Below are positions 22 to 12,563 of a DNA stretch of 36,379 nt, in pieces (within the stretch, counting starts at the first letter, position 1; every line of letters begins with the position of its first letter). Below the pieces are notes generated by a model. It saw only the letters and a list, made by a program, of their open reading frames with translations, was not told where the DNA came from and ran no database searches. Source of the stretch: Anaerolineales bacterium (GTDB lineage Bacteria > Chloroflexota > Anaerolineae > Anaerolineales > Villigracilaceae); NCBI GenBank assembly GCA_023382575.1, contig JAHDWC010000016.1:1-36379 (forward strand), given 5' to 3'. Both the position numbers and the translations under genes were made by a program.

Positions 22-690
22 TTATTCTTTTACTTCGCTTTCCCTGCTGACAATCCCTTGCTGCCAGGCATAGACGGCGGCTTGGGTGCGGTCTGCCAGG
101 TGCAACTTGCTGAGAATATTACTCACGTGTCCCTTGACTGTATTCTCGCTGATGACCAACTTCTCCGCGATCTGGCTGTTGGTGAGACCGTTGGCGATGA
201 GTTTGAGCACATCTGTCTCGCGGTCGGTCAACTCGGTGAAGAGGGGCTGTTCGCTTCCTTCTCCGCGGATATTTTGCAGCACGCGCGAAGCGACGCGTGG
301 ATGCAAAGTCACCTCGCCTTGCACGGCGCGGTGCAGGACATCCACCAGCTTATCCATTTTCATATCCTTGAGAATGTAGGAGATCGCGCCCGCTTTCAAC
401 GCAGGGAAGATGTGTACATCTTCATGATAGGACGTCAATACCACGACTTTGGTGCGCGGGCTGATCTGACGGATACGGCGCGTGGTTTCGATGCCGTCCA
501 TGCCGGGCATCATCAAGTCGAGCAGCACAATGTCTGGGATCATTTCGCCGACCAAACTCAACGCCTCTTCGCCTGAAGAGGCTTCGCCCACAACATGGAA
601 ATCAGAGATCTTCTCAAGATAGGAACGAATCCCATTTCGGACTACTTCGTGGTCGTCCACGATCAATATACTTGTGCGATGGTGTTTCAT
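22..690 (-). CDS. NarL/LuxR-family response regulator
   Basis: A 222-residue cytoplasmic DNA-binding response regulator. Residues 1-125 form a receiver domain with the acidic pair D12/D13, the phospho-acceptor D58 in the LLDLMMPG strand, the switch T in VVLTSY, and K109 in the ILKD motif. Residues about 150-215 are a LuxR/GerE helix-turn-helix (LTDRETDVLKLIANGLTNSQIAEKL, here split as LTDRETDVLKLI and NSQIAEKL, then SENTVKGHVSNI). Its ATG lies 4 bases after the stop of the kinase fragment, and its AGGAG ribosome site sits in the kinase 3' end, so the pair is probably translationally coupled. It should be phosphorylated by the HisKA_3-type kinase encoded just upstream. Its targets cannot be read from the sequence; the divergent peptide importer at 4594-12784 is a reasonable candidate but unproven. 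Confidence 0.95.
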   Translation of the reverse strand: MKHHRTSILIVDDHEVVRNGIRSYLEKISDFHVVGEASSGEEALSLVGEMIPDIVLLDLMMPGMDGIETTRRIRQISPRTKVVVLTSYHEDVHIFPALKAGAISYILKDMKMDKLVDVLHRAVQGEVTLHPRVASRVLQNIRGEGSEQPLFTELTDRETDVLKLIANGLTNSQIAEKLVISENTVKGHVSNILSKLHLADRTQAAVYAWQQGIVSRESEVKE

Positions 691-694
691 AATT

Positions 695-1306
695 TCAATC
701 TCCTGCGCCGTTGCGGGTGGGAATTTGAATGATCAAACGAGTTCCCTGTCCCGGCGCGCTTTGAACTTGAAGTGTACCGCGAATACTGCTGATGCGTTCC
801 CGCATCGAACGGAAGCCCATGCCTTTTGCTTTCTGCTGCATGTCAAACCCGCAGCCGTCGTCCGCGATCATGACCTGTAAGACTTCATGATTATATACCA
901 GAGAGATATCGGCTCGCTTTGCCTTGCTATGCCGGGCGATGTTGGCGAGCGCCTCTTGAATCACGCGGTAGACGGCCTGCTCTGTCTCGAGCGGAAGGTC
1001 GCGTCCGTTTTGAATGTTCAAATTGACGACCGCATCATTGCGATGTTCCCACTCGAAGACATATTCCCGCAGAGTGGTTTGCAATCCTTTTTCCTGCAAG
1101 GCAATGGGATAGATTTCCTGAATGAGGAAACTTAATTCCTGGATAACTTCATAGATTAAGGTCTCCGCTTCGCTCAGATGCGGAGAGAGTTCCTGGGGAA
1201 GGTTGCGACTCATCCCGTTGACGGTTCCCAGTTGCGCAAGAGCAGCGAAGGCTTTCTGTTTGGCGCTGTCGTGCAGGTCTCGTGCGAGGCGGTTGCGTTC
1301 TTCCAT
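695..1306 (-). CDS. Sensor kinase catalytic part (HisKA_3 + HATPase), frameshifted from the upstream sensor ORF
   Basis: This 203-residue frame holds the transmitter module of a NarX/DegS-type histidine kinase. The dimerisation/phospho-acceptor box is ERNRLARDLHDSAKQ, with the His in DLHD as the phosphorylation site. The ATPase follows, with an N box at EALANIARHSKA, a G1 box at DDGCGF and a G2 box at GMGFRSMRERI. The frame stays open upstream of its first ATG: reading back from 1306 to 1339 gives ELFEQTKDLAV, the usual connector between a GAF domain and this box. The sensor ORF (1210-4428) runs into the same DNA in another frame. One base missing near 1340 would join the two into a single kinase of about 1,240 residues. 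Either this is a real mutation, with the kinase domain expressed separately from ATG 1306, or it is a sequencing/assembly error. The domain assignment is firm; the gene boundary is not. Confidence 0.85.
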   Translation of the reverse strand: MEERNRLARDLHDSAKQKAFAALAQLGTVNGMSRNLPQELSPHLSEAETLIYEVIQELSFLIQEIYPIALQEKGLQTTLREYVFEWEHRNDAVVNLNIQNGRDLPLETEQAVYRVIQEALANIARHSKAKRADISLVYNHEVLQVMIADDGCGFDMQQKAKGMGFRSMRERISSIRGTLQVQSAPGQGTRLIIQIPTRNGAGD

Positions 1307-4300
1307 GACCGCCAGATCTTTGGTCTGCTCGAAAAGCTCGCAATGGACAGGGCCGCACGATTGACCAATGCTGTAAATAAACGCGCGGAGTCTTTGGTCA
1401 ATGCGTTGGGACGGGTGTACGCCACGTGGAAGATGGCGACAACCTTGCCGTCTACCACGATGGGGAAGTGGGCAAAGGACTGGATGCCTTCGTTCTGGAT
1501 GGCAGCTTTGATGTCGGCGCGCAGAGAGCTTCGGGTCAGGTCTGAGGCGATGACGGCGGTGCCGGTCTGGATGGCGATGCCGATCATGCCCTCATCCTGG
1601 TTGAAGTTCAAGACAGCCAATGTCTCAGGTTTGAAGCCGCAGCTGATGCGCGGTGTGACCTTTTGTCTTTCTCCGTTCCATGCAAAGACGAGGCTGCGGT
1701 CTGCTTTCAAGGTGGAGACGGAGACGTCTACGAGGGTTTGGAAGATTTGATTTAGCGTGACGCTGCGCAGGATCTTTTCATCTGCCTGATACAAGGCTTC
1801 GATCTCGCCGGTTCGTTTCTCAAGGTCGGCTGTGCGCATTCGGACCAGACGTTCCAGAATGCGATTTTGATTCTCGATGCTTTTTACCCGCCAACGTAAG
1901 CCGCCTGCCACCACGCCGCCGATGGCAACTAGAAGCAGGCTGAGGAACCACCATGTCTCCCAGAACGGTGGCACGACAATGACTTGAAGCGTGACGTCTT
2001 TCTCGCTCCAGACGCCATCACTGTTCGAGCCGCGTAAGTGCAGGGTGTACGTTCCGCCGGAGAGGTTGGTGTAACGCCCATTGCGCTTGTTGCCGACTTC
2101 GATCCAATCTGTGTCAAAGCCTTCCAACATGTAGGCATATTGGTTTTTGTTGGGCTGTTCATAAGCGAACGAGGTGAACTCAAATTCAAATGAATCTTGC
2201 GGCCAGGTGAGGGTGATGGTGTCTAAATATTCGGTTGTTTGCTCGCCCGCCAATTGGACGCCATCGAGCGTTAGCGATGTCAACGCGACCTTGGGTGTGT
2301 AGGGATTGTCTGTGATCTCTTGTGGGGCAAAGATGTTCAGTCCATTAATGCCGCCAAAATACATCGTCCCATTGCTGTCTTTGCCATAGGCATTCTGGTT
2401 AAATTCATTGCTTTGCAAACCGTCGCTGGCGGTGAAGCGGCGGAAGGTTTGGGTGACAGGGTCGAACCGCGAAAGCCCGAAGTTGGTGCTCATCCACAGT
2501 TTTCCCGAATGGTCTTCGAGGATTCCGTAAACCACATTATTCGACAGCCCCTCATGTTCTGTGAAATGGGTGAAGGTATTGTCTTCAGGGTTGAAACGAC
2601 TAAAGCCGCCGCCATGTGTTCCGATCCAGATTGTGCCTTTGGTATCTTCGTAGATGCACATGATGATGCCATTGCTGATCGTGGACATATCGGTGGGGTC
2701 GTGACGGAAGATGGTCACCTCACCGGTTTCTCCGTCAATGCGCAGCACGCCGTCATCGTAGGTGCCGAGCCATAGATTTTGGTCTTTGTCTTCGTGGATC
2801 GTGTTGACACGAACCTTGCTGAAATAACCAGGTTCCACACCCTCGGGCTGGTATTCGCTAAACTCACGAGTGTCGCGGTCGAATAGCATCAGTCCGCGAT
2901 TGGAGCCGACCCAAAAATTTTCTTTAGAGTCTTCGTAGATGGAAGTGACGATGAAACGCGGCGAGTCGTTGAGGTTGGTATCTTCAGGTTTGAAATGGGA
3001 GAATGTATTCGTGCCGCGATTGTAGCGATCTAAGGCGGAGCCTGTGCCGACCCACAATATGCCGCGGCTGTCGCTGAATAACGCGCCGATGCTGTTATGG
3101 CTGATGGTGGTCGGGTCGCTTGGGTCATGGATGAAGCGAGTGAATTTTTCCAGCCGCGGGTTGAAGAGATTTAATCCATTATCGAACGTGCCGATCCAGA
3201 TCTGATTGGCGGAATCTGCCAGAATGGCAAATATGAAATTACTGCTTAGGCTGGTTGGGTCATCGGGGTTGTGACGGAAATAGGCGTAGCGGTCTTGTTG
3301 GCGGTTGTATTTGTTTAATCCGCCGCCATAGGTTCCGATCCATAAGACGCCGCTGGCGTCTTCGTAGATGGTGTAGACCTCGTTATTGCTCAGGCTGTTG
3401 GGTACATTAGGCTGATACTGGTGGTGGATAAAGCCGTTCTCGCGCGGATCGTAGCGGTCCAAACCCATGTTGGTGCCAACCCATAATGCTCCCGAACGGT
3501 CAGTGTAAAGGGAGTAAACCGTATTTCCGGCCAGGCTGTTGGGAACATCCCTTGAGTTCTTGAAGCGAATGAAGTTATTTTCTTCGGGGTCGTATTGGTT
3601 TAATCCGTTTGCGGTTCCGATCCAAACTCTGCCTGCCCGATCTTCCATAATCGACATGACATGGTTATGACTCAGACTTTTGGAGTTGTAGCCATTATTC
3701 TTGAAGGATTTGAATGTGTCTGTCTTGCTGTCGTAATAGCTTACGCCCGCATCGATAGTCCCGATCCATAGTCTGCTGTTGGAATCTTTGAAGAGGGTTG
3801 TGATCGACGAGCTGGGTGGGGCGATGGTGCTGTCATTGGAGGGGTAATGCCTGAAGGTATCTGTCTCAAAGTCGAGGAAATCGAGTCCGTTGTGGGTGCC
3901 GACCCACAAGCCGCCTTCGTCCAACCAGAGAGTGTTGACATAATTGCTGGCAATCGTCTGATTGTTGTTTTTGTCGTGTTGGTAATGTGTGAATTTCCCA
4001 GTACTGGGATCGTAGCGATTCAGTCCGCCCAGGCGGGTGGCGATCCATAAGCGACCTTGTGCGTCTTCCAAAAGATCATTGATGGAACGGTCGCTCAAAC
4101 TGTCGGGGTTGTTAGTGTCAGGTTTGAAGACCTTGAAGCTGTATCCGTCGTAACGATTAAGTCCATCATCTGTGCCGACCCAAAGGAATCCTTTGCGATC
4201 CTGCAGGATGGCACTGACCACACTTTGCGATAAGCCTTCTTCCAAACTAAGTTGTTCGAAGCGGATGTTCTTACCGTAGGGGATGAAGACATCCTTTTGT

Positions 4301-4428
4301 GGGGGGGCAGGCGTCGGGTTGTGAGAGGCGCTGGGCGACGCTTCCGCCTCAGGTGTGACGGATGCGGGTCCGCACGAGGCGAGCACGAGGGTTAGAAGGA
4401 TCATCCAGCAGATCAGAATCTTGCGCAT
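1210..4428 (-). CDS. Two-propeller sensor (Reg_prop, Y_Y_Y, TM, GAF) of a split histidine kinase
   Basis: A 1,072-residue sensor part of a two-component kinase. The chosen start, ATG 4428, gives a lipoprotein-like signal (MRKILICWMILLTLVLASC, Cys19 in a LASC lipobox); the earlier in-frame ATG at 4488 would only add a basic extension. Residues about 68-715 hold some fourteen two-component-regulator-propeller repeats of the type EDxxGxLWIGTxxGLNRYD, enough for two seven-bladed propellers. A Y_Y_Y domain follows (to about 820), then one membrane span starting at WWFLSLLLV (about 826-847), a coiled linker and a GAF domain (about 880-1025). The last 43 residues are out-of-frame: the true continuation is the HisKA_3 frame at 695-1339. 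A TATAAT box lies 8 bases before ATG 4428 with no ribosome site, so a leaderless transcript is possible. In characterised homologues this architecture senses extracytoplasmic sugars or glycans; the ligand here is unknown. Confidence 0.85.
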   Translation of the reverse strand: MRKILICWMILLTLVLASCGPASVTPEAEASPSASHNPTPAPPQKDVFIPYGKNIRFEQLSLEEGLSQSVVSAILQDRKGFLWVGTDDGLNRYDGYSFKVFKPDTNNPDSLSDRSINDLLEDAQGRLWIATRLGGLNRYDPSTGKFTHYQHDKNNNQTIASNYVNTLWLDEGGLWVGTHNGLDFLDFETDTFRHYPSNDSTIAPPSSSITTLFKDSNSRLWIGTIDAGVSYYDSKTDTFKSFKNNGYNSKSLSHNHVMSIMEDRAGRVWIGTANGLNQYDPEENNFIRFKNSRDVPNSLAGNTVYSLYTDRSGALWVGTNMGLDRYDPRENGFIHHQYQPNVPNSLSNNEVYTIYEDASGVLWIGTYGGGLNKYNRQQDRYAYFRHNPDDPTSLSSNFIFAILADSANQIWIGTFDNGLNLFNPRLEKFTRFIHDPSDPTTISHNSIGALFSDSRGILWVGTGSALDRYNRGTNTFSHFKPEDTNLNDSPRFIVTSIYEDSKENFWVGSNRGLMLFDRDTREFSEYQPEGVEPGYFSKVRVNTIHEDKDQNLWLGTYDDGVLRIDGETGEVTIFRHDPTDMSTISNGIIMCIYEDTKGTIWIGTHGGGFSRFNPEDNTFTHFTEHEGLSNNVVYGILEDHSGKLWMSTNFGLSRFDPVTQTFRRFTASDGLQSNEFNQNAYGKDSNGTMYFGGINGLNIFAPQEITDNPYTPKVALTSLTLDGVQLAGEQTTEYLDTITLTWPQDSFEFEFTSFAYEQPNKNQYAYMLEGFDTDWIEVGNKRNGRYTNLSGGTYTLHLRGSNSDGVWSEKDVTLQVIVVPPFWETWWFLSLLLVAIGGVVAGGLRWRVKSIENQNRILERLVRMRTADLEKRTGEIEALYQADEKILRSVTLNQIFQTLVDVSVSTLKADRSLVFAWNGERQKVTPRISCGFKPETLAVLNFNQDEGMIGIAIQTGTAVIASDLTRSSLRADIKAAIQNEGIQSFAHFPIVVDGKVVAIFHVAYTRPNALTKDSARLFTALVNRAALSIASFSSRPKIWRSWKNATASHETCTTAPNRKPSLLLRNWEPSTG

Positions 4429-4593
4429 ATAGGTCAGTATTATAAGCAATTTGCTCTTATTACGCCTTCTGGGGGACGGTGAATACACCCTACTGCGGTA
4501 TGGTTTTTACTCTATTTTCCGATTGTTTTTTAATGTGAGAGATGTTAATCGTTAACCATTCGGTTGAGGGGGGGAATCCAATGTTCAGGACGC

Positions 4594-4622: not shown

Positions 4623-4680
4623 TTGAAGGCATGCGGAAAAAAATCTCCTCCAAGAAGATAACAGGCCGCATTCATGCATG

Positions 4681-4812: not shown

Positions 4813-7398
4813 ATGAAACTAAAAAATCTATATGCTCTCTTGAGTGTGCTGGTCATTCTAAGCATGGCTCTCGCTGCCTGTGCGCCTGCGGCAACTGAGG
4901 CTCCTGCTACAACAGATGAACCCGCCATGACAGAGGAACCTGCCATGACAGAAGAGACTCCGGCGGAAACCGAAGAGGCTCCTGCTACTGAACGTCATGG
5001 TGGTTGGCTGGATGAGATCGTCTTTTCTGTGGTCTCGTCTGATTCTGCTATTTCTCAGTTACAGGCTGGCGCGATTGATTTCTATGCTTCCAACCTGTCT
5101 TCCGATCGATTGCAGGAAATCAAGGATGCCGATTTGGGCTATACCCAGTCATATGGTGGTAACTACGGCATCAGTTTGAATCCGGCCGTGTTCGAGGATA
5201 CGAATGTTTTGAATCCGTTCTCGAACCGCAAGATCCGCGAAGCGATGAACTGGCTGATCGACCGTAACTACATCAACCAGGAAATCTACGGCGGCGGCTC
5301 CCTGCCGAAGCTGTTGGGCATCACCACCCAGTTAGTGGAATACACCAACCTGATCGAAACCGCCCGCGCGCTCGAAACCAAATACGCCTACAACCTCGAT
5401 AAGGCTCAGGAAGTTATCACAGCCGAGATGGAAGGCATGGGCGCGACCCTTGGTGACGATGGCAAGTGGCAGTACAACGGTTCACTCGTGACCTTGATCT
5501 TCCTCATCCGCTCTGACGGCGATGGCACCCGCCAGCCGATGGGCGATTACGTTTCCAATCAGTTGGAGACGATTGGCTTTACCGTAGATCGCCAGTATAA
5601 GACTTCCTCTGAAGCCTTCCCGATCTGGATCGGTACGGACGCCAAGGCAGGACAGTGGCACATGTATACCGCTGGTTATCTGCCTTCCGGTCTGACCCGC
5701 GATGAGCGTGGACAGATCCAACAGTACTACCTCAACACCAGCGTTCAGGCTGGCGAACCGTTCATCTCCAATGTCTCTGATCCTGAATTGCAGAAACTCG
5801 GCGATGATCTGGCCCAGGGTAACTTTAGCTCCAAAGAAGAACGCGATGCCATGATGGCGCGCGCGCTCGAACTCACCCTTGAAGATTCGCTCTTCGTGTG
5901 GGTTGTGGACCAGTTGGTGTACGCTCCGTATAACAACAACGTCACTGTCACGTACGATCTTGCCGCTGGTTACGAAGCCGCGTTCATGGGCAACTACAAC
6001 CTGCGCTTTGTGGGACAAGAGGGCGGCACCATGCGCGTTGGTACCAATGACCTCTTCACCCAACCGTGGAATACCCTTGCCGGTTCCAACTGGGTTTGGG
6101 ACTCCAACATCATGCGTGCGACCAGCATGGGCGCTGCCGGTATCAGTGGCAGCCAGGGCTTGATGGGCGATCCGTACACGGGTCTCGCCTGGCCCCAGCG
6201 CATTGAAAGCGCTTCGCTCGAATACAAAGCGGGTCTGCCGATTACCACCAACCTGGACTGGCTGTCAGTGACCGAAGTGGATGAAATTCCGGTTCCTGAA
6301 GATGCGTGGGTTGACTGGGATGCCACCACCCAGACCTTCATCACCATTGGTGAGAAGTTCCCCGATGGCACAACTGCCAATACCAAGAGCACGATTGTCT
6401 ATCCTGCTGACCTGTTCGAAACCGTCAAGTGGCACGATGGCAGCCCCGTCTCTGTGGCTGACTTTGTGATGGCGTTTGCCATTCTGTTCGACCGTGCCAA
6501 GCCCGAAAGCGCCGTCTATGACGAAGCTGCTGCCCCGTCGGTTGATGCGTTCCTGCCTTCCTTCAAGGGCTGGCGCATTACCTCCACCGATCCGCTGACC
6601 ATCGAATACTACTCTGACTCCTACAATGCGGATGCCGAATTGAACGTGCTGCCGCTGTGGCCTGCTTCTCCCACCGGACTCTCCGGTGAAAATAGCTGGC
6701 CTGTGTTGGCCGTGTCCAACCTGGCTGAAGCTGCTGGTGAAATTGCCTACTCTGCCGACAAGGCGGATGTGGAGCAGATCGAGCAGATGAGTTGGGTGGG
6801 TGGCCCGAGCCTCGAAGTCCTGAAGAAGTACCTCGATCAGGCCAAGGCTGATGGTTATGTTCCGTACGAAGCCACGTTGAGCCAGTTCCTCACGCCGGAA
6901 GAAATTGCCCTGCGCTATGAGAACCTCGACAAGTGGTATGCCGATCACGGTCACTTCTGGATTGGAACTGGTCCGTACTATCTGGATCAGGTCTTCACCA
7001 CTGAGAAGTCTCTCGTGCTCAAGAACTTTGCCGACTTCCCCGATCTCGCGGACCGCTGGTCTTCCTTCAGTGATCCGAAGCGCGCCACCGTCGTCCTGGA
7101 TGGTCCCGGACAGGTTGCTGCGGGCGAAGAAGCCATCTTCGATGTGATCGTCAACTTCAAGGATGAGCCCTACGCCAACGAGGATATCAAGCAGGCCAAG
7201 TACATCCTGTATGACACCACTGGAGCGGTCGTTGCCGTCGGTGATGCCGAAGCCGTGGGTGAAGGTCAATATCAGGTCACGCTGGATGCAGAAACCACCT
7301 CAAAGCTGGAATCTGGTTCGGCGAAACTGGAAGTGGCCATCGTCCCGATCCCTGTGGCGATCCCTGCCTTTACATCCTTCGACTTCATCGTTCAGTAA
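4813..7398 (+). CDS. Peptide-type ABC transporter substrate-binding lipoprotein, circularly permuted, with C-terminal Ig-like domain
   Basis: An 861-residue extracytoplasmic binding lipoprotein of the SBP_bac_5 (DppA/OppA) family. ATG 4813 follows AGGAG by 8 bases; the longer frame from 4678 lacks a signal peptide at its start. The signal ends at an LAAC lipobox (Cys23), followed by a Thr/Glu/Pro/Ala linker to about residue 61. The order of family motifs is inverted. Residues about 62-402 resemble the C-terminal part of DppA (WLDEIVFSV, NRKIREAMNWLIDRNYINQ, the helix before SLFVWVVDQLVYAPYN). Residues about 403-755 resemble its N-terminal part (GTMRVGT, KWHDGSPVSVADFV near 539, GTGPYYL near 718). 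A beta-rich Ig-like tail covers about 758-861 (ATVVLDGPGQVAAGEEAIFD and onward). This looks like a natural circular permutation. It is the first gene of the importer operon; the substrate is unknown but presumably peptide-like. Confidence 0.92.
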   Translation: MKLKNLYALLSVLVILSMALAACAPAATEAPATTDEPAMTEEPAMTEETPAETEEAPATERHGGWLDEIVFSVVSSDSAISQLQAGAIDFYASNLSSDRLQEIKDADLGYTQSYGGNYGISLNPAVFEDTNVLNPFSNRKIREAMNWLIDRNYINQEIYGGGSLPKLLGITTQLVEYTNLIETARALETKYAYNLDKAQEVITAEMEGMGATLGDDGKWQYNGSLVTLIFLIRSDGDGTRQPMGDYVSNQLETIGFTVDRQYKTSSEAFPIWIGTDAKAGQWHMYTAGYLPSGLTRDERGQIQQYYLNTSVQAGEPFISNVSDPELQKLGDDLAQGNFSSKEERDAMMARALELTLEDSLFVWVVDQLVYAPYNNNVTVTYDLAAGYEAAFMGNYNLRFVGQEGGTMRVGTNDLFTQPWNTLAGSNWVWDSNIMRATSMGAAGISGSQGLMGDPYTGLAWPQRIESASLEYKAGLPITTNLDWLSVTEVDEIPVPEDAWVDWDATTQTFITIGEKFPDGTTANTKSTIVYPADLFETVKWHDGSPVSVADFVMAFAILFDRAKPESAVYDEAAAPSVDAFLPSFKGWRITSTDPLTIEYYSDSYNADAELNVLPLWPASPTGLSGENSWPVLAVSNLAEAAGEIAYSADKADVEQIEQMSWVGGPSLEVLKKYLDQAKADGYVPYEATLSQFLTPEEIALRYENLDKWYADHGHFWIGTGPYYLDQVFTTEKSLVLKNFADFPDLADRWSSFSDPKRATVVLDGPGQVAAGEEAIFDVIVNFKDEPYANEDIKQAKYILYDTTGAVVAVGDAEAVGEGQYQVTLDAETTSKLESGSAKLEVAIVPIPVAIPAFTSFDFIVQ

Positions 7399-7476: not shown

Positions 7477-8598
7477 ATGTCTGTTACCACCCGTGTCCCC
7501 TCGGAAAATTTGGTCGTAAAGAAAAACTTTTTAAACAGTTCGTTTATGCGGATGGCACGTTATGTGATCGTACGTTTGTTGACGCTGTTCACAACGGTGG
7601 TAATCGGCGTGTATCTCACCATCCTGATCGCCAACATGGGCGGCTTTGTGGATGAGATCATCCGCGGACAGATCCGTGATGGCGTAACACAATCCATTGC
7701 CGGGAATCCGACCTATCAACAAATGGACCCGGATACCCGCCGCCAGTTGATCGAAGAACGCATCGCCTTGGAAGAAAAACGCCGCGGGCTGGATACGCCC
7801 ATTGCCATTCGCAACTTCCGCTATCTGGCGAACGCGCTTCAGCTCGACCTCGGGCGTGCCATCAACCTGACAAGTGACAGCGGCTCGAAGCAGGTGCGTC
7901 TCATTTTGCTGGAACGCCTGCCCGCCACCCTGTTGTTGATGGGTACGTCGCAGTTATTCCTTTTCTTTTCGAGCGTTTTCATCGCGCTCAACCTTTCGCG
8001 TCATTATGGCAATTTCTGGGACAAACTCATCATCGCATTGTCTCCGTCTTCCGCAGTTCCACCCTGGTTCTACGGAATCTTCCTCATTCTGATCTTCGCC
8101 TCAGGGTTGAAGATTCTGCCTTTTGGCGGCATGGTGGATTCGCCGCCGCCTGCCAATCGTTTTGATTATGCTGTCAGCGTGTTGAAGCATTTGGCGCTGC
8201 CCGGTTTGTCCCTCATTATTAGTTCATTTTTCTTGAGCGTTTACAACTACCGCACCTTCTTCCTCATTTATTCCAGCGAAGATTATGTGGATATGGCGCG
8301 TGCGAAGGGTCTGCATTCCAAGGACATCGAACGCCGCTACATTCTGCGCCCAACATTACCGAACATCATCACGAACTTTTCATTGCTGCTCATCGGCTTG
8401 TGGACGGGTGCGTTGTTTACCGAAACGGTCTTCTTGTGGCCCGGGCTGGGACGCACACTTTTCCAAGCCATCGGTTTGTATGATACGCCGATCATTGTCG
8501 GCTCGACGGTTATCTATGCCTATCTACTGGCAATGACCGTCTTCCTGCTCAACTTTGTGTATGCGCTGGTTGACCCCAGAGTAAAGATAGGCGAGTAA
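7477..8598 (+). CDS. dppB: Peptide-type ABC transporter permease (DppB-like)
   Basis: A 373-residue inner-membrane permease of the BPD_transp_1 superfamily, DppB/OppB branch. A first membrane span lies near residues 29-52 (YVIVRLLTLFTTVVIGVYLT). A short extracytoplasmic region ends in LDLGRAINL and ERLPATLLLMGTSQLF, which are family landmarks. Four or five further spans follow. The cytoplasmic EAA loop that contacts the ATPase is YVDMARAKGLHSKDIERRYI, followed by RPTLPNIITNFS and the WPGLGR motif. ATG 7477 follows GAGG by 5 bases. The next gene begins 4 bases after its stop, so the permeases are co-translated. It should pair with the next permease to form the channel. Confidence 0.93.
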   Translation: MSVTTRVPSENLVVKKNFLNSSFMRMARYVIVRLLTLFTTVVIGVYLTILIANMGGFVDEIIRGQIRDGVTQSIAGNPTYQQMDPDTRRQLIEERIALEEKRRGLDTPIAIRNFRYLANALQLDLGRAINLTSDSGSKQVRLILLERLPATLLLMGTSQLFLFFSSVFIALNLSRHYGNFWDKLIIALSPSSAVPPWFYGIFLILIFASGLKILPFGGMVDSPPPANRFDYAVSVLKHLALPGLSLIISSFFLSVYNYRTFFLIYSSEDYVDMARAKGLHSKDIERRYILRPTLPNIITNFSLLLIGLWTGALFTETVFLWPGLGRTLFQAIGLYDTPIIVGSTVIYAYLLAMTVFLLNFVYALVDPRVKIGE

Positions 8599-8602
8599 TG
8601 CC

Positions 8603-9940
8603 ATGAACAACTTGAAAGCATCCTTCCAAAAAATACTGATGTATCCATCCGCCATCGTGGGAGTGGTGGCGATCCTCATCCTCGTGGCGGTCTCCATCTA
8701 CACGATGATCACTATCCCGTATCCCGAAGCGATCCGTTTGTGGCGCGGCGGCGAGGATGTTTGGTATCAAAATCCGAAGTTCGCACAGCCAGCTTGGGTC
8801 AACTGGTTTTCCAGCAAGAAATATTCTGAATCCTTTGCGGTCAGCAGTGCGGACGGTGAATTTTCCAAAGTAGCCACGCCCGGAAAAGATGGTGCTACGA
8901 CCTACGAAATGATGCATGAGTTCGATTTCAATTACGACATGTTCCCACAGGACATGATCCTGTATTTGAAATCCAGCTTTGAAGTAAAGCAGCCATTCGT
9001 CTCGATTGAATTGATCACGCCAGATGAGCGGACTATTCGCATCGCCAGCTTCGTCATCACCGATAAATATACCTATCGCTTCTCACAGGATGAAAAGCTG
9101 CGCATCAAACTGCGGACGGAAGAAATCATCCCAGCCCTTTTCTCGAACCCGGAAACGGGGGAGATCCTCAAAGGCAAATACAAGCTGATTGTGACCGGTA
9201 CAACCTTCGAGCCGGAGTCCACGATGGATGCCGAATTCGTCTTCCACGGACAAGTCTTTGGCTTGGCTGGCACGGATCATGCCCGCCGCGATCTGACCTT
9301 GCCGTTGTTGTGGGGCGCTCCTGTCGCCTTGGCATTCGGCTTGATGGCAGCCATCGGCACCACAGTGCTGACCATGATCATCGCCGCGGTGGGGACGTGG
9401 TATTCAGGCTGGGTGGATGAGTTGATTCAACGTATCACCGAGATTAATCTCGTCCTGCCATTCTTTGCGCTGCTCATCATGATTGGTACGTTTTACTCGC
9501 GCAGTATTTGGGTCATTCTGACGGCGACGATCCTGCTGAGTATTTTCACGGGAGCGATTCTGGGATACCGCGCCATCTTCCTGCAAGTCAAAGAATCCAT
9601 GTACATCGAGGCGGCGCGGGCATATGGTGCGAGCAACTGGCGCATTATTTTCCGCTACCTCATTCCGCGCATGATCCCGCTTTTGATCCCCAGCCTGGTG
9701 CAGGCGGTACCAGCCTTCGTATTCCTTGAAGCGTCGCTGGCGGTCATCGGTTTGGGCGACCCTGTCCTCCCGACCTGGGGCAAGATCATTCAGGATGCCC
9801 AATCGAATGGTGCGTTATATAAAGGGTATTACTACTGGATTTTGGAACCGGCATTCTTCTTAATGTTGACGGGTCTTGCCTTTGCGGTGCTGGGCTTTGC
9901 GTTGGATCGCATCTTCAACCCGCGCCTGAGGGATGTATGA
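8603..9940 (+). CDS. dppC: Peptide-type ABC transporter permease (DppC-like) with large extracytoplasmic insertion
   Basis: A 445-residue DppC/OppC-type permease, against about 300 residues for usual members. Residues about 17-38 are the first membrane span. Residues about 45-220 are a hydrophilic, beta-rich extracytoplasmic stretch (for example SFEVKQPFVSIELITPDE and GKYKLIVTGTTFEPES) that is not part of standard DppC. The normal core resumes at FGLAGTDHARRDLTLPLLWG, equivalent to the family LGTDxxGRD box, and contains the EAA loop (MYIEAARAYGASNWRIIFRY) and LEASLAVIGLGDP. The stop overlaps the ATPase start in ATGA at 9937-9940. The insertion may dock the unusual binding protein encoded two genes upstream; that is inference. 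Confidence 0.92.
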   Translation: MNNLKASFQKILMYPSAIVGVVAILILVAVSIYTMITIPYPEAIRLWRGGEDVWYQNPKFAQPAWVNWFSSKKYSESFAVSSADGEFSKVATPGKDGATTYEMMHEFDFNYDMFPQDMILYLKSSFEVKQPFVSIELITPDERTIRIASFVITDKYTYRFSQDEKLRIKLRTEEIIPALFSNPETGEILKGKYKLIVTGTTFEPESTMDAEFVFHGQVFGLAGTDHARRDLTLPLLWGAPVALAFGLMAAIGTTVLTMIIAAVGTWYSGWVDELIQRITEINLVLPFFALLIMIGTFYSRSIWVILTATILLSIFTGAILGYRAIFLQVKESMYIEAARAYGASNWRIIFRYLIPRMIPLLIPSLVQAVPAFVFLEASLAVIGLGDPVLPTWGKIIQDAQSNGALYKGYYYWILEPAFFLMLTGLAFAVLGFALDRIFNPRLRDV

Positions 9941-10902
9941 GTCTCGTTGCTACTCAAGAATTGCTGAAGATCGAAAATCTGGTTTTACATTTCAAAACCA
10001 CCAAAGGTGTGGTCCAGGCCGTGGACGGCGTGGATTTTGAATTGGGCACGAATCGCGCTGTAGTGATTCTAGGTGAATCGGGTTGTGGAAAGACCTCACT
10101 CTCTAAAGCGCTGTTACGTCTGTTGCCTCGCAATGTGGATAAATATTCAGGCAAGGTTCTCTTGCAAGGCACAGATGTCATGGAGTTGGATGAAGAGGAA
10201 TATCGTCAGAATGTGCGCTGGGTGAGCATGTCACTCGTGCCACAGGCGGCGATGAACTCTCTGAACCCTGTGCTCAAAGTGGGGGAGCAGGTGGCTGAAC
10301 CTGCCATCTTGCATTTGGGCTTGAGCAAGGACGAAGCCCTTGGGTTGGTTTACAAGATGTTCCAGCATGTGGGTGTACCGCTCGATTTCGTGGAGCGCTA
10401 TCCCTTCGAGCTGAGCGGTGGGATGCGTCAGCGTGTGGCGCTGGCGATGGCTTTGGTCACCTCGCCGAGTTTGATCGTGTTGGACGAGCCCACATCTGCG
10501 CTGGATTTGTTGACGCAAGCCAACATCATGAACGTGCTCAAACGCATCAAACATGAACTGGGAACTTCGTTCATTTTGATCACACATGACATCGCCACAT
10601 CGAGCGAACTTGCAGATGAGGTCGCGATCATGTATGCAGGTCAAATTGTGGAAACGGGCGATGCGAAGGATTTCTTCCCCGCGCCGCTTCACCCTTACGC
10701 GCAGATGCTCATGGCAAGCGTGCCGCGCCTCCGCAGTGACGCGGACCCGATCTTCATCAACGGGCAGCCTCCCAGCTTGATGAATCCACCGACGGGCTGT
10801 CGCTTTGCGGCGCGTTGTCCTTTCCGTTTTGAGAAATGCAGCGAAGAACCACCTGTGTTTCGCAAAGGCAATCGCAAGGTCAAGTGTTGGTTACACAATT
10901 GA
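9937..10902 (+). CDS. dppD: Peptide-type ABC transporter ATPase (DppD-like)
   Basis: A 321-residue cytoplasmic ATPase that powers the importer. It shows Walker A GESGCGKTS, the Q loop in LVPQAAMNSLNP, the signature LSGGMRQRV, Walker B LIVLDEPTSALD and the switch His in LITHD. After the nucleotide domain comes the oligopeptide/dipeptide C-terminal extension (HPYAQMLMASVPR), with four cysteines spaced C-x5-C-x6-C-x15-C at the end, the pattern linked to a metal or iron-sulphur site in this family. It overlaps the upstream permease by four bases. The partner ATPase is encoded beyond an interposed DinB-like gene. Confidence 0.95.
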   Translation: MSLVATQELLKIENLVLHFKTTKGVVQAVDGVDFELGTNRAVVILGESGCGKTSLSKALLRLLPRNVDKYSGKVLLQGTDVMELDEEEYRQNVRWVSMSLVPQAAMNSLNPVLKVGEQVAEPAILHLGLSKDEALGLVYKMFQHVGVPLDFVERYPFELSGGMRQRVALAMALVTSPSLIVLDEPTSALDLLTQANIMNVLKRIKHELGTSFILITHDIATSSELADEVAIMYAGQIVETGDAKDFFPAPLHPYAQMLMASVPRLRSDADPIFINGQPPSLMNPPTGCRFAARCPFRFEKCSEEPPVFRKGNRKVKCWLHN

Positions 10903-10935: not shown

Positions 10936-11520
10936 ATGTCCACTACCGCCCTGTATGATGTACTTTACTCGTTCAAGGATATTCATCGCGTAGTGCTTGA
11001 GTTCGCCCGCGAACTCGATGAAGACCAATTACGCTGGCGTCCGCGCGGATATAGCACTTCCATAGGGTTTCACCTCTGGCATTTGGCGCGCGAATCGGAT
11101 TTTCTCAAAGCGATCATTCTGGAGCGGACCCCTCAACTCGGCGCAGACTTTGGGGAGCCGGTGGAGATTTGGGCGAAGGATAACCTCGCTCAAAAATGGG
11201 GCTTTCCCACTGACTTAACCGCGACTGTAGGCACAGGCTTAAGTGACGAACTCGCTGCGATATTGCCAATCCCACCCAAAGATGAATTGATCGATTACCT
11301 AAAACGTTCATATGCTGCCATTGAAGGATTTATCCAACTACTAGATGAGCGTTATCCCACCTTCGATGGACTTGATGAAGAATTGACGCGGAAATTGCAA
11401 AACATCCGTTTGAACCTGTTGGTATTCCTCTCGCACGATTGCCGTCACCTCGGCATGATGGAATGCTTGAAAGGCTTGCAGACCGGGTTTGGCTCCGCAA
11501 CAGAAAAACGGCAGGCATGA
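10936..11520 (+). CDS. DinB-like metal-binding four-helix protein inside the importer operon
   Basis: A 194-residue protein of the DinB/YfiT-like superfamily. Family features are the N-terminal helix (LEFARELDEDQLRWRPRG), a first histidine cluster in GFHLWHLARESDF and a C-terminal pair in SHDCRHLGMMECLKG; three of these His normally bind a divalent metal. Members include thiol-dependent transferases, such as mycothiol- or bacillithiol-using enzymes, and many of unknown function. Its activity here cannot be specified. It lies 33 bases after the first ATPase gene and just before the second, so it is part of the importer transcript. No strong ribosome site precedes ATG 10936. Its placement may mean it acts on the imported compound, or may be chance. 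Confidence 0.85.
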   Translation: MSTTALYDVLYSFKDIHRVVLEFARELDEDQLRWRPRGYSTSIGFHLWHLARESDFLKAIILERTPQLGADFGEPVEIWAKDNLAQKWGFPTDLTATVGTGLSDELAAILPIPPKDELIDYLKRSYAAIEGFIQLLDERYPTFDGLDEELTRKLQNIRLNLLVFLSHDCRHLGMMECLKGLQTGFGSATEKRQA

Positions 11521-11552
11521 TCCACACCACTGAACTAAAAGAGGCCATGAGG

Positions 11553-12563
11553 ATGTCAACGAAAATACAGGCACAACGAGAAGTCCTGCTATCCATTCGA
11601 GATCTGCATGTATGGTATGAACTACGCCGCTTCGGCTTCAGCCATATTGGGTACGTCAAAGCGGTGGACGGTGTCAGCTTTGAGATGGCTCAGGGAGAAA
11701 CAGTGGCAGTCGTCGGGGAGAGTGGCTGCGGCAAGTCCAGCCTGATGAAAACGATTCTGGGAATCAATATCCCGACGCGTGGCGAACTCATCTTTGAAGG
11801 CAAGAACCTTTCCAAACTGGCGGGCTCAGACCTGCGGGATTATCGTTTTGACATTGGTTATGTTCAGCAAGACCCATATGGGGCGCTGCCGCCATTTATG
11901 AGCGTGCAACAAATTTTGGAAGAACCTTTGCTGGTCAGCGGCGTGAAAGACAAAGAAAAGCGGATGGAACGCATCCACAAGACGATGACGGAAGTAAAGC
12001 TTCATCCCGTGGAGGATTTCCTGCACAAGTTTCCGCACATGTTGAGTGGCGGACAGCAGCAGCGCGTCGTCATCGCCCGAGCCATGATCCTCGAACCGAA
12101 GATGATCGTCGCTGATGAGCCTGTGTCGATGTTGGATGCGTCGGTGCGTGTGGAAATTTTGAAGTTGCTGCGAAGTTTGCAGGAGCAACATCGCCTCTCT
12201 GTGATCTATATCACGCATGATCTTTCGACTGTGAAATATTTTTCTGAACGAATCTTTGTGATGTATGCGGGCAATTTGGTGGAGAAAGCCGAGACCCGTC
12301 GCTTGTTGACGAATCCGCTGCACCCTTACACCCTGGCACTGTTGGCTGCCACGTCAGACCCGGATGCGGGCAACGCGGACGATTTCAAAGAAGTGCCGCC
12401 CGGTGAGCCGCCCAGTCTCGTGAATCCGCCGAAGGGATGCCGTTTCCATCCGCGTTGTGCTAAAGCCATTGCTGGTTTATGTGACGAGAAAGAACCTGTC
12501 GATTTTGAGCCCGAGCCCGGCCATTTTGTCGCTTGTTGGTTGTATCAAAAGGAGAGTCCATGA
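11553..12563 (+). CDS. dppF: Peptide-type ABC transporter ATPase (DppF-like)
   Basis: A 336-residue cytoplasmic ATPase, the second of the importer. It has Walker A GESGCGKSS, the Q loop in YVQQDPYGALPP, signature LSGGQQQRV, Walker B MIVADEPVSMLD and the switch His in YITHDLSTV. The C-terminal oligopeptide extension follows (HPYTLALLAATSDP), with a cysteine cluster C-x5-C-x7-C and a last Cys in ACWLYQ. ATG 11553 is chosen because GAGG lies 8 bases upstream. Alternatives are ATG 11547 and ATG 11517, the latter overlapping the DinB stop in ATGA. The family motif LxIRDLHVWY begins shortly after the chosen start. Its stop overlaps the next small gene. Confidence 0.93.
   Translation: MSTKIQAQREVLLSIRDLHVWYELRRFGFSHIGYVKAVDGVSFEMAQGETVAVVGESGCGKSSLMKTILGINIPTRGELIFEGKNLSKLAGSDLRDYRFDIGYVQQDPYGALPPFMSVQQILEEPLLVSGVKDKEKRMERIHKTMTEVKLHPVEDFLHKFPHMLSGGQQQRVVIARAMILEPKMIVADEPVSMLDASVRVEILKLLRSLQEQHRLSVIYITHDLSTVKYFSERIFVMYAGNLVEKAETRRLLTNPLHPYTLALLAATSDPDAGNADDFKEVPPGEPPSLVNPPKGCRFHPRCAKAIAGLCDEKEPVDFEPEPGHFVACWLYQKESP

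Follow-up and report, generated by a model that had tools for sequence, protein, structure and literature searches.

A circularly permuted family-5 solute-binding protein beside an Opp-type operon in Anaerolineales, and related permutations in bacteria and archaea

A solute-binding protein (SBP) that is circularly permuted in nature has been described before: TpMglB-2 (Tp0684), from Treponema pallidum, is of the permuted type I kind labelled 'Type Ic/Cluster Bc', and its authors raised an adaptation to anchoring (PMC4990184). Recurrence of permutation has been suggested for C5 DNA methyltransferases, where it is thought to have happened several times and always in the same region (PMC5944983). 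Permutation by duplication, in which a tandem duplication is followed by trimming, is the textbook route (PMC3320104). Among archaeal oligopeptide-binding proteins, S. solfataricus SSO1273 and A. pernix APE1583 have been characterised. No description of a naturally permuted family-5 protein was found in the literature searched, which consisted of titles and the starts of abstracts and left most subscription papers outside, and novelty is therefore unproven; PMC3824201 had no bearing on the question.

Here we describe a protein encoded in a 36,379-nt stretch of DNA from an Anaerolineales bacterium (contig JAHDWC010000016.1), hereafter the window. It shares its fold and its Opp-type operon with E. 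coli DppA/OppA and other SBP_bac_5 proteins, but differs from DppA/OppA in the order of the halves, an added Ig-like domain and a longer core. The nearest solved structure by both sequence and fold is T. kodakarensis OppA (PDB 7fi3), which has the same long N-part; the N-part lies ahead of the C-part in 7fi3, whereas the two are swapped in the window protein. TpMglB-2 is likewise a naturally permuted, tethered solute-binding lipoprotein, but it has the type I/cluster B sugar-binding fold, of another class and with another cut. The permuted C5 DNA methyltransferases resemble the present case in the recurrence proposed, but are intracellular enzymes and do not belong to a transporter. Few transport proteins have been studied as well as SBPs, but the permuted family-5 branch, which spans many archaea and several bacterial phyla, did not come up in the literature searched; a linear profile scan reports such proteins simply as 'SBP_bac_5'.

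One binding protein with the halves of its fold in swapped order

The window is contig 16 of a genome of 4.37 Mb in 346 contigs. The binding-protein gene (4813-7398, + strand) encodes 861 amino acids and starts with an ATG preceded by AGGAG 8 nt upstream; an alternative in-frame ATG at 4678 is the less likely start. The parts of the protein and the genes downstream are listed in Table 1. Export and membrane tethering are inferred by motif only, from the signal peptide and lipobox. The same genome encodes a second permuted paralogue, 55% identical to the window protein, and also ordinary SBP_bac_5 proteins.

Table 1. Features of the binding-protein gene and of the transporter genes in the window
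Feature	Coordinates	Strand	Evidence and remarks
Signal peptide	4813..4881	+	Ends in lipobox LAAC (residues 20-23), Cys at residue 23; motif read from translation
Low-complexity linker, residues 24-61	4882..4995	+	Largely disordered in model; pLDDT <50 at 16-53
C-terminal part of SBP_bac_5 fold, placed first, residues 62-402	4996..6018	+	PF00496 148-350; 7fi3_A 332..755
N-terminal part of SBP_bac_5 fold, placed second, residues 403-755, long OppA type	6019..7077	+	PF00496 25-140; 7fi3_A 34..727
C-terminal Ig/macroglobulin-like beta sandwich, residues 756-861	7078..7395	+	AlphaFold models, VIA-align
oppB permease	7477..8598	+	PF00528 6.8e-25; best NCBIfam Opp4B, below cut-off
oppC permease	8603..9940	+	PF00528 4.8e-21; best NCBIfam Opp4C from residue 222, below cut-off
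OppC extra stretch, residues 46-215 (~170 residues)	8738..9247	+	No Pfam match at 0.1
oppD ATPase	9937..10902	+	ABC_tran, oligo_HPY
oppF ATPase	11439..12563	+	ABC_tran, oligo_HPY; TTG ORF, internal ATG possibly the true start

A swap of the two halves of the SBP_bac_5 fold (residues 62-402, then 403-755) had been claimed in a first-pass annotation made without database searches, and this claim held in Pfam, in a PDB search, in an in silico rotation and in AlphaFold models. Against the 368 positions of PF00496, residues 66-293 matched positions 148-350 and residues 536-742 matched positions 25-140, within one open frame. The total score of 108.8 bits (cut-off, 32.4) establishes SBP_bac_5 membership by sequence; the canonical linear order of the fold is not met, as profile positions 148-350 come ahead of 25-140. 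Aligned separately, residues 62-402 matched the later part of PF00496 and residues 403-755 the earlier part, the latter with 27.3 bits and hence below the cut-off. The best chain in a phmmer search of the PDB was 7fi3_A, with query residues 490-739 on chain residues 67-303 and query residues 128-307 on chain residues 397-584. A profile built from 32 family sequences, the window's included, placed both parts on 7fi3_A in reverse order with 200 bits. When the query was rotated in silico (403-755 followed by 62-402), a single 7fi3_A stretch was obtained (88-599 on 67-584) and the score to this chain rose from 74.9 to 85.6 bits.

The new ends correspond to residues 237 and 243 of the E. coli OppA precursor and to W233 (WGTK) and Q238 (QIDTLVF) of the DppA precursor, in the loop that links the 'NPxYW' turn to the 'xLDxIxF' strand; the first-pass placement of the cut at the GTGP...W / IDTLVF junction thus held. 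At the internal joint, window residue 398 aligns with OppA 541 of 543 and with DppA 535 of 535, and the old N-terminal part begins five residues on. The ancestral C- and N-terminal regions therefore adjoin in the window protein, as expected of circular permutation with the old termini joined. The window protein is one circularly permuted family-5 SBP with a single-copy core, in which the C-part comes before the N-part.

Two other arrangements were considered and rejected. Duplication, or the presence of two complete binding proteins, was ruled out, no repeated segment being found within any ORF scanned, and a normal linear order with a long insert was ruled out by Pfam, the PDB sequence search and the rotation. 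The earlier preference for permutation over duplication thus held, no segment being present twice in the ORF. The accompanying statement that the core is about one copy long held in part: its 694 residues equal one copy of the long archaeal-OppA type, not of DppA.

AlphaFold2 returned pLDDT 87.0 and pTM 0.83 for the whole protein (32 family sequences), and pLDDT 89.1 and pTM 0.74 for residues 403-861 (31 sequences). In VIA-align, where the ranges give the first and last aligned residue only, residues 57..402 corresponded to 7fi3_A 332..755 (Z 26.7, 337 aligned, rmsd 3.0), and residues 404..848 of the 403-861 model to 7fi3_A 34..727 (Z 29.8, 300 aligned, rmsd 2.4). Foldseek and VIA-align keep chain order, and each half was fitted separately to 7fi3_A without a joint superposition. 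The models of the two parts match complementary portions of one two-lobed binding protein; both parts are thus predicted to have the SBP_bac_5 fold, each matched singly to 7fi3_A. SBP_bac_5-type proteins head the fold-match lists; with regard to a type I/cluster B fold like that of TpMglB-2, absence from these lists excludes nothing. The C-terminal Ig-like domain that had been proposed is a beta sandwich in the models, with VIA-align Z values of about 10-11.8 to MG, PKD and filamin domains, among other beta sandwiches; Pfam FlgD_ig stayed below its cut-off of 27 (16.4 bits for the whole protein, 17.4 bits for residues 403-861).

Distribution and membrane anchoring of the first permutation

The arrangement noted for the window protein in the first-pass annotation proved to be a widespread form, permuted again in one bacterial order (see below). 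Matches to the window protein at E 1e-20 or better were present in 31 of 61 genomes, its own included. A set of 43 loci from GTDB genomes covered Chloroflexota classes, Bipolaricaulota/Acetothermia, Bacillota, Caldatribacterium (Atribacterota), Caldisericota, Neomarinimicrobiota and the archaeon HR02. A family profile matched 189/300 genomes of the HR02 phylum at 1e-10 (part of them weakly), 17/398 of the phylum of the Bacillota genome at 1e-30, 29/301 of the window's phylum and 7/50 of the phylum of Caldatribacterium; apart from the window's, these phylum labels are those of the locus used as the centre of each searched set. No match to the permuted family was obtained from the plasmids searched.

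The order of parts was determined by searching nine segments one by one with no order imposed. The order of the window protein (first permutation) was recovered in 29/30 loci of the 61-genome search, 42/43 GTDB loci, 30/30 best loci of the HR02-phylum search, 16/19 loci of the Bacillota-phylum search and 10/10 loci of the window's phylum. In the non-conforming loci only one half was visible; the sets overlap and include the window. Both halves were visible in 155 distinct genes, of which 149 had the first order, 5 a second order and 1 the ordinary order. First-permutation genes occur in Chloroflexota, Bacillota, Bipolaricaulota, Atribacterota and many archaea. The segment test is largely blind to classical SBP_bac_5 proteins (30 ordinary loci yielded one half in 17 cases and nothing in 13), and these are not part of the count of 155. 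The test therefore cannot count ordinary members, for which PF00496 was used. In addition, searches with the A1 profile favour the first-permutation order, because that profile itself has this order.

An assembly or frame artefact was considered as a rival explanation. The sources are mostly metagenome-assembled genomes, and at L030 and L063 the gene is spread across several frames; against this stand the 149 of 155 genes and all 30 of the best HR02-phylum loci, which refute an artefact for the first permutation, and overall we regard this explanation as all but excluded.

Ordinary and permuted proteins occur together in the archaeal phylum of HR02. No close ordinary-order relative was found in 14 archaeal genomes with weak matches, whose 30 loci, some of them two to a gene, comprised 28 with the first permutation and 2 with one half. 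In a broad tree of 68 of the 120 family rows, retained after thinning of near-copies, and 8 ordinary-order rows, the ordinary-order T. kodakarensis OppA fell beside a divergent archaeal permuted protein (support 97, long branches). Because of this placement, neither a single origin nor the direction of the first permutation is proven. In the scenario we propose, the first permutation would most likely have had one ancient origin, by tandem duplication and trimming, and would then have spread over bacteria and archaea.

Membrane anchors were called by simple motif and hydropathy rules, leaving out 5 genes without a start and 5 others that lacked segments on which the anchor rule relies. A C-terminal hydrophobic helix was present in 42/46 archaeal first-permutation genes and in 0/93 bacterial ones; a lipobox was present in 59/93 bacterial and 0/46 archaeal genes, and 34/93 bacterial genes had no lipobox by the rule used. 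Both anchor types are located at the new chain ends. The permutation would shift both new ends, and so the membrane tether, to another point of the trap, the tether at the shifted end being an N-terminal lipid in many bacteria and a C-terminal helix in most archaea examined. The anchoring idea raised for TpMglB-2 may, by analogy, extend to the family-5 permutations, each of which moves the anchored end; this is a fit only, without a test.

Several individual loci had unusual features. The archaeal member at L083 (9866-12691, +), from a genome with a second permuted copy, has an end that resembles, in our own reading, a coiled coil and a membrane helix. The 1193-aa ORF at L287 (6817-10395, -) carries a protein kinase domain (Pkinase, 5.2e-56) before the permuted core and is a possible receptor kinase, and the 1082-aa ORF at L286 (4980-8225, -) carries a matrixin-like metalloprotease domain (Pfam, 7.5e-7) in the same position. 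The split genes at L063 (9836-12582, +) and L030 (1489-4332, +) are apparently broken or misassembled.

A second order of segments in Dehalococcoidia

The L082 genome (Dehalococcoidia) encodes a 775-residue lipoprotein with the segment order c3-c4-n1-n2-n3-n4-c1-c2. A search of the class with this protein gave matches in 8/294 genomes, and the same order in G501, whose protein is 38% identical over residues 1-742. In a search of one order of Dehalococcoidia, the family was present in 7/84 genomes and the second order in four of these (G062, G501, G671 and G680). The second-order proteins number five in total, as G671 has two genes, one of them cut by a contig end. The four with a visible 5' end start with a signal or hydrophobic N-terminal sequence; that of G680 is without Cys, and in G671 no ATG was seen, the frame extending to the contig start. 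All five stop at the strand equivalent to GKWQY of the window protein. The second cut maps to OppA 381-385, in the second lobe. Pfam gives independent evidence of the restored junction: PF00496 positions 113-278 run across residues 571-777 in the protein of G680, with like matches for G671 and G501. For the G062 protein Pfam returned nothing at 0.1, though its segments score.

The n4-c1 joints of the second-order proteins are proline-rich and resemble the linker ahead of the first-permutation core. They bear on a less likely alternative to tandem duplication and trimming, namely fission and fusion, in which the halves were once separate genes that rejoined in the other order. The duplication route of PMC3320104 is proposed here too, yet the ORF scan brought up no intermediate with part of the fold duplicated, though tandem duplication would predict one; this favours fission and fusion. 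Against the latter, no stand-alone halves were noticed, the half-only loci inspected (not all) being contig ends, split frames or weak ordinary matches, and the proline-rich joints are such as a tandem fusion would leave. The joints are only suggestive, because T. kodakarensis OppA too has a linker there. Tandem duplication and trimming remains our preferred route.

Paralogues of the first and second order occur together in G062 and G501. A 31-row tree required four changes to account for the second order, and a single change sufficed in 0/200 bootstrap trees. The second-order label was hardly clustered in this tree (four changes, where shuffling gave 4.8 on average; 98/500 shuffles as low), and a single clade of the five proteins was rejected (p-AU 5.8e-6). 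As recombination could mimic repeated switching, the moved and unmoved parts were also treed separately. The moved-part tree needed three changes, with one change in 0/200 bootstraps, and the tree of the unmoved rest needed four (without bootstrap). In both part trees, L221 fell beside the first-order L217 (58% and 57%) and L099 beside the first-order L092, L222 and L223. The moved-part tree grouped L196, L220 and L226 (94/81), which merges two of the four switches counted in the full tree. The Dehalococcoidia trees were made from 31 and 30 chosen rows, and L201 contributed 424 residues only.

These trees favour at least three switches between the first and second order, but the count of changes cannot separate gains from losses; since the outgroups have the first order, repeated gain of the second is the simpler reading. 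The rival reading is that the second-order proteins had one origin, scattered by recombination with first-order paralogues, or one gain followed by repeated loss. In its favour are the presence of both kinds of paralogue in G062 and G501, the grouping of L196, L220 and L226, and the indistinguishability of gains and losses; the placement of L221 and L099 beside the same first-order rows in both part trees and the rejection of a single clade speak against it, and we judge it unlikely. Under the preferred reading of repeated switching, at least three further switches to the second permutation would have occurred within one Dehalococcoidia order, with the same stretch cut every time. If independent, these repeated second permutations in one order would be replicates.

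The gene at L213 (2-1339, +), in genome G559, has lost its 5' end at the contig edge; it runs n4-c1-c2-c3-c4 and then stops, which is an ordinary-order ending. G559 belongs to the same class but was not among the 84 genomes of the order searched. L213 grouped with two second-order proteins in the 31-row tree (99/99). A return to ordinary order is the simplest reading and a possible one, the start of the protein not being seen.

The Opp operon, the extra OppC stretch and a possible sensor role

In the window, the adjoining permease and ATPase genes, the latter with oligo_HPY, meet the context of an Opp/Dpp-type importer. At 7 of 11 further loci checked, oppB adjoins the binding-protein gene; it was absent from two long loci, L281 and L286 (the latter locus of 12 kb), and from L191 and L284, where the contig breaks off at the binding-protein gene.

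Among 69 distinct OppC rows, obtained with matches shorter than 180 residues omitted, the extra stretch was present in 49/49 rows with a core identity of >=49% and in 0/20 rows with <=36%. The 20 rows without it include OppCs of ordinary operons, but also three divergent ones that neighbour permuted genes of archaea (L131, L133 and L248) and have long N-terminal parts without a match. The stretch was seen only in transporters that go with this binding-protein family. It is also present in the operons of the second-permutation L214 and the ordinary-ending L213, and it therefore marks a transporter subfamily and not chain order.

Taken together, the window protein is likely a permuted family-5 (cluster C) SBP acting as the substrate-capturing lipoprotein of an Opp-type importer. 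That it captures peptides, and that these are imported, is only inferred, from the place of its gene ahead of oppBCDF together with the lipobox and the fold. In the mechanism envisaged, the permuted chain would fold into the usual two-lobed trap and pass peptides to OppBC, and the extra OppC stretch would perhaps aid docking.

Alternatively, the protein could be part of a sensor or receptor. For this reading, kinase (L287) and matrixin-like protease (L286) domains precede the permuted core in two relatives, the window has a putative two-component system upstream of the gene, and L281 and L286 are without an adjoining oppB. Against it, oppB, oppC, oppD and oppF lie downstream in the window, oppB recurs at most of the further loci and the OppC stretch accompanies the family. 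A sensor role is thus very unlikely, and the importer reading is retained.

A bolder joint reading is that permutation in this family is recurrent, with an ancient form common to bacteria and archaea, at least three independent re-openings at one and the same stretch of lobe II within one Dehalococcoidia order and one return to ordinary order elsewhere in the class, all with the same kind of Opp transporter and with the tether point under selection; we consider it as likely to fail as to hold. As the transporter seems constant while the order changes, nature offers in this family a ready experiment on the effects of chain topology and tether position on folding of a binding protein and on its delivery of substrate.

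Two further features of the window were observed. Upstream, the region 22-4488 (-) contains, in our own reading, a putative two-component system, in which a 1092-aa sensor-like ORF overlaps a 203-aa histidine-kinase-like ORF in another frame, followed by a response-regulator-like ORF. The last residues of the 1092-aa ORF look out of frame, which may reflect a frameshift or an error of assembly near 1210-1340. Between oppD and oppF lies a gene of the DinB_2 family (10936-11520, +; Pfam 7.7e-13).
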